This document shows positions 15,937-22,858 of a DNA stretch of 64,000 bases, piece by piece. Position numbers and translations under genes: made by a program. The notes below the pieces were generated by a model. It was given only the letters and a program-made list of their open reading frames with translations. It did no database searches and had not been told where the DNA came from. Every line of letters starts with the position of its first letter. Positions within the stretch are counted from its first letter, which is position 1. Origin of the DNA: Flavobacterium suncheonense GH29-5 = DSM 17707 (GTDB lineage Bacteria; Bacteroidota; Bacteroidia; Flavobacteriales; Flavobacteriaceae); NCBI RefSeq assembly GCF_000430025.1, contig NZ_AUCZ01000004.1, positions 124,001 to 188,000 of the forward strand, in the 5' to 3' direction.

Positions 15937-17151
15937 TTATTTAAACTTCATGGCCAATGTTATGATGTGTGAATCCAGGCCGTTGCTCCGGGTGTAAAAA
16001 CCGTAACGCAATTCCAGGCTGTTGATTCTTTTTACGTGGAAAATACCTTTGTCGGCATCGGTAATTTTATAGCCCAATCCAATCATATGACTGCTGAATT
16101 TCGACAAATCGTAATCACTGGTATAGAATTCTTCTTCCAGTCCGTGCAGATAAATTGGTTGGAAATATTTCGCAGCCGTTTGGGTATAAAAACGATACGG
16201 AACGGAAATCGATGAAAATGCCGTCAGCTTATAACTCGGTTCAAAACTGATGGTATGTGAATTGATGTTCCAGTTGTCCCAATAATAGCGGTAAAAAGTG
16301 CGCAACACAATATTATCGCCTAAGAAATAATTCGCCCGGACACCCACCGGAAGTTTAAAACGCGTATCCGGCAATTTTTCCGATTTAACGGTGACAAGTG
16401 CGTCATTAAAATACACACGGTTGAATTTGGTGGCCAACAATCCCTGCTGATAGCCGATATCCGTTAAGAAAGCCATCTGGAAATTCCGGTTGAAAACCTG
16501 GGATAGCGTCAAGCCTAAATTGTAGGACGTCCTCGGTTTCTTGTCGCCTTGTTTGGCATCATTGTCGGATGGGGCATTCCTCAGTTCAATTGGTAAAATT
16601 ACTTTCCAGGTATCGAAAAACGCCATTCCTTTTGCGGTGAATTCCCGGTTTTTGTCTTTCGATATTTTGGAAAAACCTAAACTTCCGCCGATGGATGTAT
16701 AATCAAATTCTCCTGAAAAGGAAAGCCCTGCGCTTAGGATATAATTTTTTTCTTCGTTCTCATAACTGTAGTTCAATGACGGGTACACCCGTACATCCTG
16801 ATAGGAAGCCGAAGTTACCGTATTTGGGTCAATTTTGTCCGATGAAGCTGAGGTGTAGGAATCAATACCCAATTCAAAACCTAAGTTGTGTTTGTGGTTG
16901 TAGCGGTCTCTTCTGGAAACTCTGATTTCGAATGTGGTCGCGATGTCCGTTAGTTTTTCGGTTCCTTTTCCGCCGGTTACGGCCGAATTGTCTCCGTCCT
17001 GACTGTAGTAGCTGGAAATAAAATTGACTTCTTCGATTTTCAGTTTTTGCTTTTTGTAAGCTGAACTGTCGGAAGAGGTGGTATCTTGTGCTTTCATGTG
17101 GTTACCCAACAGGAATGCCAGTATGGAAGCGGTATAAATTCTTCTTTTCAT
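15937..17151 (-). CDS. DUF3570 outer-membrane beta-barrel-type protein
   Basis: The 404-residue product has a signal peptide (MKRRIYTASILAFLLGNHMKAQ). A DUF3570 domain follows with the characteristic early segment FISSYYSQDGDNSAVTGGKGTEKLTD. The rest is alternating amphipathic strands ending in aromatic residues and a terminal Phe-Lys (LAMKFK), consistent with a transmembrane beta-barrel. It is the last gene of the thioredoxin-apbE-DUF4266-DUF3570 operon, 18 bases after DUF4266. No function is established for DUF3570 as far as I know. Its constant partnership with ApbE and DUF4266 suggests an envelope redox or cofactor-transfer role. Confidence 0.88.
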   Translation of the reverse strand: MKRRIYTASILAFLLGNHMKAQDTTSSDSSAYKKQKLKIEEVNFISSYYSQDGDNSAVTGGKGTEKLTDIATTFEIRVSRRDRYNHKHNLGFELGIDSYTSASSDKIDPNTVTSASYQDVRVYPSLNYSYENEEKNYILSAGLSFSGEFDYTSIGGSLGFSKISKDKNREFTAKGMAFFDTWKVILPIELRNAPSDNDAKQGDKKPRTSYNLGLTLSQVFNRNFQMAFLTDIGYQQGLLATKFNRVYFNDALVTVKSEKLPDTRFKLPVGVRANYFLGDNIVLRTFYRYYWDNWNINSHTISFEPSYKLTAFSSISVPYRFYTQTAAKYFQPIYLHGLEEEFYTSDYDLSKFSSHMIGLGYKITDADKGIFHVKRINSLELRYGFYTRSNGLDSHIITLAMKFK

Positions 17152-17169
17152 AATCTTTCTTATCGGGTA

Positions 17170-17376
17170 TTAATTACAGCCACAGCCACCGCCGGTTTTT
17201 CCGCCGTTTGCACCGGAACTTCCTTCGCGATAGAGTTGGAAGGTGTTTTCGAACTTTTCCGTTTTTTTGGCCGCCAGTTCCATTTCAGCATCGTTGATTT
17301 TCGATTTCTGATATTCCTTAACCGGTTTGCATCCGACACTTAGCACAAAGGCGGATAGTAAAACAATTTTCTTCAT
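17170..17376 (-). CDS. DUF4266 small lipoprotein with GGGCGCN tail
   Basis: This is a 68-residue lipoprotein: signal peptide with lipobox LSVGC (Cys16), a charged helical middle, and a Gly-rich C-terminus ending TGGGCGCN with Cys65 and Cys67. That ending is the hallmark of DUF4266 as I recall the family. Residues 51-57, EGSSGAN, resemble the ApbE acceptor motif D-x-x-[ST]-G-A-[ST], but the acceptor position is Asn, which cannot take FMN through a hydroxyl. It sits between apbE and the DUF3570 gene, 17 bases after apbE. The two tail cysteines could bind metal, form a disulfide handled by the operon's thioredoxin, or be modified. Role unknown. Confidence 0.85.
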   Translation of the reverse strand: MKKIVLLSAFVLSVGCKPVKEYQKSKINDAEMELAAKKTEKFENTFQLYREGSSGANGGKTGGGCGCN

Positions 17377-17393
17377 ACTGTTAAGTTTTGAGG

Positions 17394-18314
17394 TTAAGTG
17401 AGTTTTATGTTATGGGAGAAATATTTAGTATCGTTATCATCAATAATAATGCATCCGATATGTTTTAACTGATTGATAAAATCCAGACCGACTTCGATTC
17501 CCATTACGGTTACCGGTGTGGCTAAGGCGTCTGCAATTTCTGCATTTTCGGCTATGATGGTAACGCTTTTGATGCCGCTTACCGGAAATCCTGTTTTCGG
17601 ATCGATGGTGTGCGAATAGCGTTTTCCGTCAATCATCACGAATTTTTCATAGTTTCCGGAAGTGGCAACGGCAGTATTGGTAATTTTGAAGGTAGAAAAA
17701 ATACCATTTCTCAGATTCGGATTCGCAATACCAATCGTCCAAGCTTCCCCGTTTTCCTGATAACCCCACGCCGATAAATCGCCGGAAGCGTTTACAATGC
17801 CGCTTTCCACACCGTTTGCAATGAGTTTTCGTTTGGCCATTTCTGCGGCATAACCTTTTCCGATTCCGCCAAATCCGATGCGCATGCCTTTTTGTTTCAG
17901 AAAGACGGTTTTTTCGGATACATCGAGGATTATGTTCTCATAATTAATGAGTGCCACCGATTTTTTTGCCGTTTCGGCATCGGGTAACGAGGTCATGTTC
18001 AAATCGAAATTCCAGAATTTTTTGTCGATGCCGCCGTAACTGATGTCGAAAGCGCCTTGCGTTATTTTGGAAATCATCTGACAGCGTTGGATAAGGCTGA
18101 ATACTTCTTCAGTTACTTTAACCGGCCGGACTCCCGCATTTTCGTTGATTTCATACGTTACGCTGTCGGTTGAAAAAGTCGTAAGCAGTTTTTCAATGCG
18201 CCGGATTTCTTCGATGGCAAGGTCAATTTTTTCGGTACACCACTTTTCGTCGGGTCCCAAAACAGTGAACTCGAAGCGGTTGCCCATTAATTTTTCAACC
18301 CTTTTTTGCTGCAT
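17394..18314 (-). CDS. apbE: FAD:protein FMN transferase (ApbE family)
   Basis: ApbE enzymes cut FAD and attach FMN to Ser/Thr of extracytosolic proteins. This 306-residue copy has the family motifs: GGIGKGYA at 149-156 (FAD binding), SGDLSAWG at 177-184, HTIDPKTG at 235-242, and DALATPVTVMG at 262-272 with the metal-binding Asp. Its start overlaps the thioredoxin stop (TAATG), fixing the start and coupling translation. Oddly, the N-terminus (MQQKRVEKLMGNRFEF) has neither signal peptide nor lipobox, whereas most ApbE proteins are exported. Either it works in the cytosol or it uses another route. The obvious target candidate is the neighbouring DUF4266 lipoprotein or a protein outside the window. 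Confidence 0.92.
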   Translation of the reverse strand: MQQKRVEKLMGNRFEFTVLGPDEKWCTEKIDLAIEEIRRIEKLLTTFSTDSVTYEINENAGVRPVKVTEEVFSLIQRCQMISKITQGAFDISYGGIDKKFWNFDLNMTSLPDAETAKKSVALINYENIILDVSEKTVFLKQKGMRIGFGGIGKGYAAEMAKRKLIANGVESGIVNASGDLSAWGYQENGEAWTIGIANPNLRNGIFSTFKITNTAVATSGNYEKFVMIDGKRYSHTIDPKTGFPVSGIKSVTIIAENAEIADALATPVTVMGIEVGLDFINQLKHIGCIIIDDNDTKYFSHNIKLT

Positions 18315-18754
18315 TATCCTTTCAGTTTGGCGATGAATTCATCAAGCGTTTCCGTTGGGTAATGTTCCCATTTTTTTAAGATTTCTCCTTTGTTGTTTAG
18401 TAACAGTATCAGCGGGAAAAGGCCGTTGTTGTTATATTTTTCGGCTAATTTTTCATTCTCCTGCATGATTTCTGCTGGAAGCTGGTTTTTTTTCAGTCTC
18501 GGAAAATCGGCATTAAAAACCACTAAATTTTCATTGCTGAATTGTAGGAAAGGCTCTGTGGTAACGAAATACTTTTTAAATTTTACGCACGGAGCACACC
18601 AATCGGAACCGGAAAAAAACAGCAACACTTTTTTATTTTCAGTTTTTGCTTTTTCTAGCGATTGTTCGAAGGTTACTCTGTTCGTTTCCTGAGCTGTAAG
18701 GGTAAAAGACAACAACATCAGAAGTCCTGCAATTTTCATTTTCATAGTCATCAT
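18314..18754 (-). CDS. Secreted thioredoxin-fold protein
   Basis: The 146-residue protein has a signal peptide (MKMKIAGLLMLLSFTLTAQ) and a thioredoxin fold with redox motif CAPC (Cys53, Cys56) in FFSGSDWCAPCVKFKKYF, as in periplasmic DsbD/DsbE-like reductases. Several Met codons cluster at the start (MMTMKMK), so the exact N-terminus is uncertain by up to six residues. It is the first gene of the operon and shares one base with apbE. A role in keeping cysteines of the downstream DUF4266 protein reduced is my inference from the operon, not something the sequence shows. Confidence 0.88.
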   Translation of the reverse strand: MMTMKMKIAGLLMLLSFTLTAQETNRVTFEQSLEKAKTENKKVLLFFSGSDWCAPCVKFKKYFVTTEPFLQFSNENLVVFNADFPRLKKNQLPAEIMQENEKLAEKYNNNGLFPLILLLNNKGEILKKWEHYPTETLDEFIAKLKG

Positions 18755-18866: not shown

Positions 18867-19529
18867 CTAATCTAAAGATTCGATTAAGATTAAGTCGCCC
18901 TCCTCATGAGTAATGGAAACAATGCCGTCTTCCGCCACATGATTGCTGCTTCCGGTGCGGTAACCGATGGTAAGAATGTCATCTTTCAGCGGATAAAACA
19001 GGTTTTCCGAATGAATCCCGCTTACTTTTCCAATCGGAATGAGTGAAATGATGCTGTCTTTCGGATACCATTTCTGAAAGTGCTTCGGCAGTAAAAATAT
19101 CTTCGAATGATCGTCCAGAATTACAATTTTCAGCTGATCGCGAAACCGGACGATGTTGGTAATGTTGGTAATGGTGTGATCGGCGCGTTTTCCGGTGGCC
19201 CAGAGTACGTTTGCGGCTTTGTGTCCTTTGGTTACGAGGTAGTCAAAAGCTTTTTCCAGATCGGTTTTCTCCTGGTCGGGCGTGTGTACGATTTCAATCG
19301 GATATTGTTTTTCACGATAGTATTCGGCATCAAAACCGCGGTCGAAATCGCCTAAAAGCACATCGACTTTTATCCCTAATTCCAAAACCCGTTCGATGGC
19401 AGAATCGAGCACAATGACCAAAGGCGACCATTCCAGCAGCTGGCCGAGCAGTTCTTTGCTGCATTCGGCTCCGTTAGCAATAATTAAAGCGGGTTCCTGA
19501 TCGTCGCGTACGATGTGGTGTGATGACAT
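18867..19529 (-). CDS. Thiamine pyrophosphokinase
   Basis: This enzyme transfers pyrophosphate from ATP to thiamine, giving thiamine diphosphate. At 220 residues it fits the bacterial family. The acidic metal-binding motif GDFD is at residues 60-63, DQEKTD at 85-90, and the nucleotide motif GKRADHTITN at 113-122. The C-terminal beta-domain carries the thiamine-pocket segment TGSSNH. A perfect -7 box lies in the 25-base gap to the upstream DUF4249 gene, so it can be transcribed separately. I see no THI-box (TPP riboswitch) upstream; there is no room for one. Confidence 0.92.
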   Translation of the reverse strand: MSSHHIVRDDQEPALIIANGAECSKELLGQLLEWSPLVIVLDSAIERVLELGIKVDVLLGDFDRGFDAEYYREKQYPIEIVHTPDQEKTDLEKAFDYLVTKGHKAANVLWATGKRADHTITNITNIVRFRDQLKIVILDDHSKIFLLPKHFQKWYPKDSIISLIPIGKVSGIHSENLFYPLKDDILTIGYRTGSSNHVAEDGIVSITHEEGDLILIESLD

Positions 19530-19545
19530 TATCGTGAAATTTTGT

Positions 19546-19553
19546 CAAAGATA
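19546..19553 (-). promoter_or_regulatory. -7 box for thiamine pyrophosphokinase
   Basis: Minus-strand TATCTTTG lies 17 bases upstream of the ATG, between the DUF4249 stop and the kinase start. Confidence 0.65.
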
Positions 19554-19554
19554 A

Positions 19555-20382
19555 CTATTGTACCAGATAATTCCGCAAATCGGTTTCACCCAAACTGAAA
19601 TATCCCAGTGGATAATTGGCAGGATTGGTCTGATTGATAATATTGCTGCGGAGCGTAACCGGTGGTGTGGCAAACGGATTGCCGGCATTGGTGGTGGCAA
19701 TGGCAATCAGTTTGTTCATATAATTATAGTATTGTTCGGAAATTCCCTGAACCTGTAATAAAATAGTAGTGCCCGATTCGGTTTCTCCGCTGGAATAAAA
19801 GCCAAACATCGGATTGCCCTGAAAGAATTCATCGCTCAACGTACCGTATTCCGGAATGACTTTGTTGGGGTTTTTTACGGTTAACAGGTAGAAATTATCT
19901 TCGGCGCCATTGTCCTGAAAATACCATTTTAACTGGATTTTATCGCTGCCATCCACATCGGTTACGGTTTCCTGTTCCACATATAAAATCTCTGGTGTGG
20001 CGTAAAGGGTATTGGTTGCGGCATACGTTTGCCCATTGTATAGTACGTTCAGCGTATAACTTTCGTTGATAACAGGAACAAAATCTGTGCAGACGTATTC
20101 TCCGGTTGTGCCTATTTCCGCGAAAGCGAAAACGGTATTGGTGCTGTTCGTAATCTGTACAACCGCACCGGAAGCCGGAACCACGTCATTGGTGTAGTAA
20201 TTGTTGGTCATGCTCAGTCGGATGCTTTGGGTTTCACCGGCTGTTCCTTTTTGCCATTTGATTGCGGCGTCGATTACTAGTCTTGGGTTCTCATCGTTTA
20301 AATCGACATCGACTACATCTTCACAGCCAACAGTGACGATTGTCAATACCAAAACAGCTAAGTAATGAAAGAAGGTTTTCAT
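19555..20382 (-). CDS. DUF4249 lipoprotein paired with a TonB receptor
   Basis: The 275-residue lipoprotein has lipobox TVGC (Cys20) followed by acidic residues (CEDVVDVDLNDENPRLVIDA), the recognisable DUF4249 start. The mature part is beta-rich and continues with LNVLYNGQTYAATNTLYATPEI, typical of this family. Its gene begins 4 bases after the TonB-dependent receptor ends, so the two are co-transcribed. By analogy with SusC/SusD pairs it may sit on the outside of the receptor and bind the ligand; DUF4249 is unrelated to SusD and its ligand is not established. Confidence 0.88.
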   Translation of the reverse strand: MKTFFHYLAVLVLTIVTVGCEDVVDVDLNDENPRLVIDAAIKWQKGTAGETQSIRLSMTNNYYTNDVVPASGAVVQITNSTNTVFAFAEIGTTGEYVCTDFVPVINESYTLNVLYNGQTYAATNTLYATPEILYVEQETVTDVDGSDKIQLKWYFQDNGAEDNFYLLTVKNPNKVIPEYGTLSDEFFQGNPMFGFYSSGETESGTTILLQVQGISEQYYNYMNKLIAIATTNAGNPFATPPVTLRSNIINQTNPANYPLGYFSLGETDLRNYLVQ

Positions 20383-20386
20383 GTTC

Positions 20387-22762
20387 TTAAAATTTAAAGT
20401 TGTAGGTTACCGAGGGCACTATGCCGAAAATAGAAAGCCGTATCGCTTCGTTAGCACCCGTTTCATAATTCTGACGGAAACTGATGGAAGCCGCATTTTT
20501 ACGGCTGTACACATTGTAGATACCGAAAACCCATTCGCCTTTCCAACGTTTGTTTTCCGATTTTTTAGGCGTTAAAGTGGCCGATACATCCAAATGATGG
20601 TAAAATGGTAAACGGTCTGCATTTCTGGAATTGTAACTCGGAACTGTGATGCCCTGATACACGTATTTTCCGTTAGGATAGGTTACGGGTTGTCCGCTCT
20701 GAAAGGTGAAATTCGCGCCAAATGTCCATTTTTTGTTCCATTTATAATTTCCGGTTACCGCCAGGTTATGGGTTTTATCATAAGCAGAATTGTACCATTC
20801 GCCGTTGTTGATGCCTACTTCGTTTGGGGTTCTGCCCGGTGTTTGCTGTTGCGATTTGGAAAGCGTATAAGCAATCCAGCCGTTTAAGTTACCGGTGTTT
20901 TTCCGGAATAAAATTTCCAGTCCGTAGGAACGCATCCTACCGTTCAGGATAACCTGTTCAATGGCTTCGTTGGCAATCAGATCGGCGCCGTCGATGTAAT
21001 CCATGCGGTTTTTGACGGTTTTGTAATAGGCTTCGGCTTCGAGCGTGTAATTATCGTCTTTGAAATTCCGAAAATAACCTACGGCAAACTGGTCTGAAAG
21101 CTGTGGTTTGATGTAATTGTCGCTGGGTGTCCAGACATCAAGTGGTGTAGGGGAAGCCGTGTTGGAAATCAGCTGCAGGTATTGCGTCATTCTGTGATAA
21201 CTGGCTTTCACAGAAGAATGTTCGTTGATTTCGTAAGCGACAGCCAAACGCGGTTCCAGATTCTGATAATCTTTGATGACTTTGCTTCGGCTGAAAAACT
21301 GTGTGCTCACCGGTTCGCCTTTCTCATAAATCTGAAGCGCTTCATCATAGGTTACCGGCTGATTGTTTTCATAATAATTGATAGTGGACGGCCCTAACCG
21401 GTAAAACAAGCTGTGGCGCAATCCGTAGGATAGGGTTAATTTGTCGCTTATTTCCTGTTCAGCATCGAGGTAGAAAGCATGTTCCAGCGCATATTTTTTG
21501 TCCAGCTGTCTGTAGTTGATGGACGATTCATCATCCAAAGGTTCAATGGTGCCCGGGTTAAAACTGTAATGGTTGGTATTGACACCGAAATTGAGTTTAA
21601 GTTTTTCAGTCCAATAGTACTTAAAATCGTATTTCAGATTGTAACTCTGTATGCCCGATTTCCAGTTGAAGCCGATGAAATCCAATACCAGTCCGTAATA
21701 ATAATCGCTGTAGATGAACGACAGATTGGAGAAAAGCTTGTCGGTAAACAAATGATTCCAGCGCATGTTGACGGTTGCATTCCCGTAAGTGTTGGTAAAC
21801 AGTTCATTCAGGGAAAACACGTCCCTTCCGAAATACCCCGAAAGGTATAAGTTGTTGTTTTTGTTCAACTTATAATTGAGTTTAGTGTTTAAATCGTAAA
21901 AATAGGCCGAGTTCTCATTGTCTGTCAGTTTTAAGAAAAGATGTGCGTAGGAAGCCCGTCCGCCGAAAAGAAAGGAGCCTTTTTCTTTTACAATCGGTCC
22001 TTCGGCGAGAATCCGGCTGGAAATCAAACCGATACCGCCGTTCATACTGAATTTATTGCTGTTCCCGTCTTTCTGATAAATGTCTAAAACCGAAGAAACC
22101 CTTCCACCATAACGAGAGGGAATGCCGCCTTTATACAGTTTTAAGTCTTTAATTGCATCCGGATTGAATACCGAAAACATCCCAAAAACGTGCGAGGAAT
22201 TGTAAATCGTGGCTTCGTCTAATAAAATCAGATTCTGATCGGCACCGCCACCGCGAACGTTAAATCCCGACTGTCCTTCGCCGGCATTGGTTACACCGGG
22301 CAAAAATAAGAGCGATTTGATGATGTCGACTTCGCCCAAAACCACAGGCATTTGCTTGATGGTGGCAATAGTGAGCTTGTTAACGCTCATTTCCGGTTTA
22401 CGGATGTTGGCCTTTTGTTTGTTGGTGATGATGATTTCGTCCAGTTGTTTGCTGATTTCCTCCAGATAGAACTTTTGCGTTCTGTTTTCGGTAAGATTCA
22501 CCGTTTTTTCCAATGTCTGATAACCTACAAATGAAATAATTAGAATGTGTTGCCCTTTCGGTAAGGTTAAGGAGTAAAAACCATATTCGTTGGTGTAGGT
22601 ATAGGCTTTCGAGTTCTTCACCTGAATGTTGACACCGATTAAGGTTTCGCCGGTTTTGGAATCGGAAATGGTGCCGCTCAAGGTGTATTTCTCCTGCGAA
22701 AGTACATCCGCAAACAGAAATAAAAAGTAAAGCGGCAAGTATTTTTTCAGCAGCAAAGGCAT
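20387..22762 (-). CDS. TonB-dependent outer-membrane receptor
   Basis: The ATG at 22762 places a signal peptide (MPLLLKKYLPLYFLFLFADVLSQ) at the N-terminus and gives 791 residues; an upstream TTG at 22801 would add 13 residues that break it. A carboxypeptidase-regulatory-like domain follows (YTLSGTISDSKTGETLIGVNI). The plug domain includes LPGVTNAGEGQSGFNVRGGGADQNL and YKGGIPSRYGGRVSSVLDI, and a 22-strand-type barrel ends VTYNFKF. It is the first gene of a two-gene unit with DUF4249. No SusD is present, so a polysaccharide role is not indicated. Substrate unknown. Confidence 0.93.
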   Translation of the reverse strand: MPLLLKKYLPLYFLFLFADVLSQEKYTLSGTISDSKTGETLIGVNIQVKNSKAYTYTNEYGFYSLTLPKGQHILIISFVGYQTLEKTVNLTENRTQKFYLEEISKQLDEIIITNKQKANIRKPEMSVNKLTIATIKQMPVVLGEVDIIKSLLFLPGVTNAGEGQSGFNVRGGGADQNLILLDEATIYNSSHVFGMFSVFNPDAIKDLKLYKGGIPSRYGGRVSSVLDIYQKDGNSNKFSMNGGIGLISSRILAEGPIVKEKGSFLFGGRASYAHLFLKLTDNENSAYFYDLNTKLNYKLNKNNNLYLSGYFGRDVFSLNELFTNTYGNATVNMRWNHLFTDKLFSNLSFIYSDYYYGLVLDFIGFNWKSGIQSYNLKYDFKYYWTEKLKLNFGVNTNHYSFNPGTIEPLDDESSINYRQLDKKYALEHAFYLDAEQEISDKLTLSYGLRHSLFYRLGPSTINYYENNQPVTYDEALQIYEKGEPVSTQFFSRSKVIKDYQNLEPRLAVAYEINEHSSVKASYHRMTQYLQLISNTASPTPLDVWTPSDNYIKPQLSDQFAVGYFRNFKDDNYTLEAEAYYKTVKNRMDYIDGADLIANEAIEQVILNGRMRSYGLEILFRKNTGNLNGWIAYTLSKSQQQTPGRTPNEVGINNGEWYNSAYDKTHNLAVTGNYKWNKKWTFGANFTFQSGQPVTYPNGKYVYQGITVPSYNSRNADRLPFYHHLDVSATLTPKKSENKRWKGEWVFGIYNVYSRKNAASISFRQNYETGANEAIRLSIFGIVPSVTYNFKF

Positions 22763-22858
22763 AGGAAATTGGTGTTGACGGTTGTCCTGCAAATTTCGCA
22801 ATTTTGAAAGAGAATAATTGTTAAGATTAGGTTAATGTGTTGAGGTTAAGACAAATAA

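Follow-up and report, generated by a model that had tools for sequence, protein, structure and literature searches.

A Flavobacterium operon of the ApbE-DUF3570 type, with a predicted outer-membrane barrel as the probable flavin acceptor

ApbE, a FAD:protein FMN transferase (FAD, flavin adenine dinucleotide; FMN, flavin mononucleotide), is generally described as acting where its target resides. The closest described system to the locus considered here is a cluster of ApbE, DUF3570, thioredoxin and DUF4266 genes, in some cases with DsbD (PMC8238504). Among 285 clusters with DsbD, 227 contain DUF3570, 183 thioredoxin and 221 DUF4266; a further 316 clusters without DsbD were counted, and 25 clusters include a VIT1 iron transporter (PMC8238504). 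In Chlorobium luteolum, DUF3570 is flavinylated by ApbE on two [S/T]GA[S/T] motifs, and flavinylation is abolished only when both serines are replaced. The pair was co-expressed in E. coli without a signal peptide, with most of the DUF3570 in the pellet, and redox cycling of the DUF4266 CXC motif was proposed (PMC8238504).

Here, we analyze a four-gene operon of this kind in a 64,000-nucleotide stretch (the window) of Flavobacterium suncheonense GH29-5 (NZ_AUCZ01000004.1, positions 124,001 to 188,000). A first-pass annotation of the window had recognized four same-strand genes with gaps of -1, 17 and 18 bases, encoding a CAPC thioredoxin, an FMN transferase, a 68-residue lipoprotein ending GGGCGCN and DUF3570, and the open reading frames (ORFs) and Pfam matches confirm this. 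Its description of the system as a candidate uncharacterized one, with no role established for DUF4266 or DUF3570, does not hold: the same gene set, with DUF3570 flavinylated by ApbE, appears in PMC8238504. The operon is a Flavobacterium-type, ordinary member of this published, little-understood electron-transfer system. The likeness covers the clustering of the same four families, the twin predicted acceptor motifs on DUF3570 and the C-terminal CXC of DUF4266, and clusters without an adjoining DsbD are among those counted there; the differences are that the window motifs read TSAS rather than [S/T]GA[S/T] and that DsbD of the window's genome is encoded elsewhere.

Three elements are apparently new: a predicted barrel with outer FMN sites; an ApbE without signal peptide beside an exported substrate; and Rieske, cytochrome b561 and VIT1 genes in related operons. 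The words barrel, porin, Rieske, b561 and "cytosolic ApbE" are absent from the main text of PMC8238504. This was the only paper found naming DUF4266 or DUF3570, in a search that left out most subscription journals and all preprints; within the same scope, no follow-up was found among the titles and abstracts searched, which makes for a weak absence. Neither the barrel with outer FMN sites nor the combination of signal-less ApbE and exported substrate was found in the literature searched, which is not proof that they are unpublished.

DUF3570 as probable flavin acceptor and predicted barrel

FMN is very probably attached to DUF3570 by ApbE, judging from acceptor motifs and homology. Because the C. 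luteolum homolog has been shown to be flavinylated (PMC8238504), DUF3570, and not DUF4266, is the likely acceptor. Consistent with this assignment, all 81 full-length DUF3570s from named Bacteroidota loci contain at least two [ST][GSA]A[ST] motifs, as do 76 of the 84 DUF3570s in a first set that includes green sulfur bacteria. Ser101, Ala102 and Ser103 are invariant across 75 aligned DUF3570s, residues 113-116 are nearly so, and the first TSAS of the window protein aligns with TGAS or SGAS of green sulfur bacteria. Three observations weigh against the assignment: the remaining 8 of the 84 have fewer than two motifs; the Vibrio DUF3570 shows, by eye, one motif only; and both window motifs carry Ser at the Gly position of the published motif. 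The ApbE acceptor motif tolerates either Gly or Ser at that position.

The operon ApbE is the genome's only ApbE, and its DUF4266 and DUF3570 are likewise sole copies. With a single ApbE, and with no FMN_bind or DUF2271 protein found in the genome, DUF3570 is the only substrate of known type there. Service of this ApbE to another known type of substrate was considered and rejected on the same search, which leaves room for substrate types not yet recognized.

The four families travel together. In a phylum sample of 247 genomes, 69 carry DUF4266 and 71 carry DUF3570, and all 69 fall within the 71. ApbE is present in 70 of these 71, and the one other case (G213) is a fragment from a broken contig; the survey of co-occurrence that the first-pass annotation proposed thus did not find DUF4266 and DUF3570 mostly without ApbE, the outcome it had named as refuting. 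The complete four-gene set is found at 78 of 80 named Bacteroidota loci, and at the other two (L120 and L160) only the thioredoxin is missing, past the contig end. It is also found at 31 of 40 phylum-sample loci, which include paralog copies and exceptions picked on purpose. This first set of 40 loci overlaps the 80 named loci by one genome or more (the DUF3570s of L063 and L180 are identical), which limits the independence of counts pooled across the two. Given the co-occurrence of DUF4266 and DUF3570 and the clustering of all four genes across loci, the grouping is not by chance.

Green sulfur bacteria (family f17, recognized as such through the FMO protein, which all 9 genomes tested carry) include five genomes, G197, G141, G177, G201 and G221, with several DUF3570 copies and a single ApbE gene; match segments number up to nine (G197), and an 832-residue open frame at G201:C45 holds two DUF3570 domains. 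DUF3570 is divided between two ORFs both in Hymenobacter sp. DG25B (L205:4851-6103) and in a Spirosoma metagenome-assembled genome (L169), by decay or sequencing error. Plasmid-borne spread was considered and rejected: by tblastn, a green-sulfur DUF3570 gave no match, the window DUF3570 matched five records (two Hymenobacter and three Vibrio replicons of 1.85 Mb), and the Vibrio DUF3570 matched just the same three Vibrio replicons.

From its signal peptide and closed, even-stranded barrel, DUF3570 is predicted to be a 16-strand outer-membrane beta-barrel. The AlphaFold2 model, for which 74 of the 80 listed DUF3570s were aligned to the window sequence, comprises a signal helix and 16 strands (mean predicted local distance difference test score, pLDDT, 86.3; predicted template modeling score 0.80). 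Foldseek matches it to a BenF-like porin (E 2.4e-9), and VIA-align 2 to the BamA barrel (Z 21.9, 284 residues, root-mean-square deviation 3.5) and PgaA (Z 18.7, 255 residues, root-mean-square deviation 3.6). A shared barrel fold alone shows no function. The four-family envelope flavin/redox unit of the first-pass annotation is supported as a conserved one, and the barrel prediction supports its placing of DUF3570 at the outer membrane.

Both TSAS motifs lie in the loop of residues 101-117. Given an even strand number and short turns at the end of the barrel where the termini lie, this loop falls on the outer side in the model. Two points weigh against this placement: the loop is modeled at low confidence (pLDDT below 50 at 104-106 and 108-116), and its extracellular position rests on the usual rule for even-stranded barrels. 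Conservation is concentrated in the same half of the barrel. Among the 30 strand residues of highest conservation, 25 fall in the outer half and 4 in the periplasmic half among 28 diverse sequences (Fisher 3e-5), or 25 and 3 among 75 sequences (Fisher 8e-6), with the one or two left over sitting mid-barrel; the two tests are not independent, as the alignments overlap in lineage. Several green-sulfur DUF3570 paralogs have one motif a loop earlier in the chain; under this topology that loop, too, faces outward.

ApbE without an export signal

The window thioredoxin, DUF4266 and DUF3570 each have an N-terminal export signal and the window ApbE has none; its open frame reaches 314 residues, just 8 extra codons upstream. 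This pattern recurs. Under a rule requiring a best 11-residue N-terminal hydropathy of at least 1.7, thioredoxin, DUF4266 and DUF3570 each pass at 78 of 78 complete named loci, and ApbE at 2 of 78; these two (L130 and L171) pass on the core sequence LMGNxFxxTVV and not on a signal. As a control, 20 of 20 ApbEs encoded outside the cluster, from 18 phylum-sample genomes (17 with the operon and one without), have an export signal. Signal-less ApbEs are also found in the clusters of green sulfur bacteria and in Vibrio sp. THAF191d, which has the same gene set and a 293-residue ApbE between DUF3570 and DsbD.

The pattern has exceptions, which weigh against a general rule. In a second scan, of 114 cluster ApbEs longer than 270 residues from both sets, with the open frame read as far as 60 residues ahead of the core, 18 pass; with three dismissed by eye (L122, L151 and L153), 15 signal peptides remain, in some Flavobacteriaceae, Hymenobacter-like and deep lineages. 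Cytosolic FMN loading is therefore not universal. A rougher first-pass rule had given 103 of 116 ApbEs without signal, a count that includes two fragments (L120 and L160) and three ApbEs (L078, L079 and L083) misjudged through overlong ORFs or a missed motif, and by the hydrophobicity rule alone 4 of 26 distinct ApbE N-termini at loci L003-L062 pass within 30 residues. In a tree of 81 ApbEs (25 selected among the named loci, 36 taken from the first set and the window, and the 20 controls), built by a quick search and with long branches among some controls, absence of the signal needs three changes, two of them forced by well-supported branches, and green sulfur bacteria and Bacteroidota stand apart. 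On this Bacteroidota and green-sulfur sequence tree, the signal-less ApbE is placed at two or more separate origins.

In the relevant passages of a 2025 review, cytosolic ApbEs are given only for cytosolic or fused targets (PMC12052999). The cytosolic ApbE of Klebsiella pneumoniae likewise lacks a signal peptide, but it acts on a soluble fumarate reductase that remains cytosolic (PMC12052999), whereas the likely target here goes to the outer membrane. The co-expression of the C. luteolum pair in E. coli without signal peptide (PMC8238504) shows that flavinylation is possible on protein synthesized in the cytosol. An ApbE without signal peptide beside an exported substrate suggests, from gene content, that FMN is attached before DUF3570 export in most such operons.

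Alternatively, flavinylation may be periplasmic as usual, with ApbE crossing the membrane without a recognizable signal or as a thioredoxin-ApbE frameshift product. The one-base overlap of the window thioredoxin and ApbE frames (TAATG) would allow the latter, and the signal peptides of same-operon ApbEs in other lineages favor periplasmic action. However, the spacing between thioredoxin and ApbE is not constant, running from about -17 to +58 across the L063-L084 loci, which makes a conserved frameshift unlikely, and in green sulfur bacteria ApbE follows DUF3570 and not thioredoxin. Taken together, periplasmic attachment seems rather unlikely, with a real share of the probability still its own.

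Proposed electron path and alternative roles

The favored mechanism would involve: transfer of FMN by ApbE to Ser103 and Ser116 of DUF3570, by homology with the C. luteolum experiment; attachment in the cytosol, the site of FAD synthesis, ahead of DUF3570 transit through Sec and BAM; and assembly of the predicted 16-strand barrel with the FMN loop at its outer mouth. Cytosolic thioredoxin would supply electrons, by way of DsbD, to the CAPC thioredoxin-like protein. They would move on to the Cys-Gly-Cys on the flexible DUF4266 tail, which could swing across to deliver them to the barrel FMNs. The FMNs may in turn reduce an acceptor located at or beyond the outer membrane, ferric iron being the most likely one, if the flow has this direction. 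Taken as a whole, this reading of the operon as an outer-membrane flavin/dithiol electron-transfer module of the DUF3570-ApbE-thioredoxin-DUF4266 kind falls slightly short of an even chance.

The electron supply has a candidate in the genome's one complete DsbD (680 residues), which lies outside the operon and is the likely donor to the CAPC thioredoxin-like protein. In green sulfur operons DsbD is present as thioredoxin-like ORFs of 615-625 residues after ApbE. The proposed shuttle is invariant: CGC stands within the last six residues of all 150 distinct DUF4266 sequences. Near the other end of DUF4266, the lipid-type Cys is followed by a V-K-x-Y type sequence in 81 of 81. The Vibrio DUF4266 (L204:5154-5618; 154 residues) has an ordinary signal peptide, no obvious lipobox and the same GGGCGCN end.

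Neighboring genes suggest electron delivery and iron. Of 120 related loci, 30 have a Rieske gene directly or closely upstream, 26 have VIT1 and 16 have cytochrome b561; one locus (L138) reads cytochrome b561-VIT1-Rieske-thioredoxin-ApbE-DUF4266-DUF3570. Against the extension of this argument to F. suncheonense, no VIT1 or Rieske match was found in the window's genome, and the added electron-transfer and iron genes of related operons were not found near the window operon. Ferric iron is, for this reason, no more than the most likely acceptor.

Two other systems offer partial likenesses. MtrCAB also pairs an outer-membrane barrel with carried or enclosed redox cofactors for electron transfer across that membrane, with flavin and dithiols here and hemes there. 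In the fullest form of the proposal, the operon would be a flavin/dithiol counterpart of such porin-cytochrome conduits: a signal-less ApbE would load the 16-strand barrel with FMNs inside the cytosol, these would travel covalently bound through Sec and BAM to the extracellular mouth, and the lipoprotein's CGC tail would feed them electrons for an external acceptor. This version is tentative and on balance doubtful. Erv2, too, has a mobile C-terminal Cys-Gly-Cys able to exchange electrons with flavin; no homology is claimed, and here the FMN is covalent and on another protein.

The Erv2 shuttle layout, a C-terminal CGC on a Gly-rich tail, also fits a flow in the reverse direction, which cannot be read from the genes alone. 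The barrel FMNs would then oxidize thiols, with DUF4266 and thioredoxin passing electrons from envelope proteins to FMN and on to oxygen or another oxidant, in the manner of Erv/Ero-type oxidases. However, DsbD, a supplier of reductant, lies within the operon in green sulfur bacteria and Vibrio, green sulfur bacteria are anaerobes, and VIT1 and cytochrome b561 suit reduction; the reverse direction is thus unlikely. Less probable again is a redox-gated channel, in which the state of the FMN opens or closes the barrel to iron or another solute and no electrons are conducted outward: the general porin fold and VIT1 in 26 of the 120 neighborhoods are compatible with it, but the Rieske and cytochrome genes are left unexplained, and we know of no flavin-gated porin.

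The first-pass annotation had taken DUF4266 for the FMN-modified protein, on display or exported by way of DUF3570. Its tail does include an S-G-A-N stretch after R-E that resembles the ApbE motif, with a conserved Ser/Thr preceding the acceptor position in 129 of 150 distinct sequences; that DUF4266 is itself an ApbE substrate is nonetheless highly improbable, as the position equivalent to the acceptor is Asn in 79 of 81, the Ser/Thr is missing in 21 of 150, 3 of 150 have no Ser/Thr among the last 20 residues, and the demonstrated substrate is DUF3570 (PMC8238504). No evidence was found for its display or export by DUF3570.

The operon in the window and its surroundings

The four ORFs occupy 15937-18754 on the minus strand in the order thioredoxin, ApbE, DUF4266, DUF3570 (Table 1). 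Among NCBIfam models the thioredoxin comes closest to disulfide reductase DsbH, at 84.7 bits where the cut-off is 190. Of the named relatives found, Flavobacterium cauense is nearest, its DUF3570 being 83% identical.

Table 1. Operon genes and predicted functional sites, in window positions
Feature	Position	Strand	Details
Thioredoxin	18314..18754	-	146 residues; Thioredoxin_7 PF13899, 2.1e-11 (Pfam); CAPC at residues 53-56; N-terminal hydrophobic stretch, secreted thioredoxin-like
ApbE, FAD:protein FMN transferase	17394..18314	-	306 residues; PF02424, 2e-77; begins MQQKRVEKLMGNRF; without signal peptide
DUF4266 putative lipoprotein	17170..17376	-	68 residues; PF14086, 1e-18; lipid-type Cys16; Gly-rich tail; ends GGGCGCN
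DUF4266 C-terminal Cys-Gly-Cys, residues 65-67	17176..17184	-	CGC conserved
DUF3570	15937..17151	-	404 residues; PF12094, 2.5e-34; N-terminal signal helix, then predicted 16-strand barrel; likely FMN acceptor
First predicted FMN-attachment motif, TSAS, DUF3570 residues 100-103	16843..16854	-	context DSYTSAS; motif scan
Second predicted FMN-attachment motif, TSAS, DUF3570 residues 113-116	16804..16815	-	motif scan

Upstream of the operon on the same strand (18867-22801) lie genes for a thiamin pyrophosphokinase, a DUF4249 protein and a TonB-dependent receptor. Homologs of all three recur at 5 of 80 related loci, so these genes look like a local Flavobacterium neighborhood outside the system. 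Among related loci, the Rieske [2Fe-2S] protein at L138:3715-4197 (PF00355, 6.6e-9) and at 29 further loci has an MDRKEFLxxIG-type N-terminus and is encoded near the thioredoxin start. A conserved 129-residue protein without Pfam match (L133:3821-4210) adjoins the operon at 15 loci, mostly upstream of thioredoxin in Chryseobacterium-type loci and also at L066, L067, L127, L158 and L183.

If the proposal is correct, the pairing of a signal-less ApbE with an exported target, seen in three bacterial groups, would imply that an outer-membrane protein can receive a covalent cofactor before Sec export. Cofactor attachment to an outer-membrane barrel before it leaves the cytoplasm would be unusual, and is directly testable. 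If, in addition, the FMNs are located at the barrel's outer mouth, this system, common in Bacteroidota, would give electrons a heme-free route across the outer membrane, and ferric iron would be a plausible acceptor.

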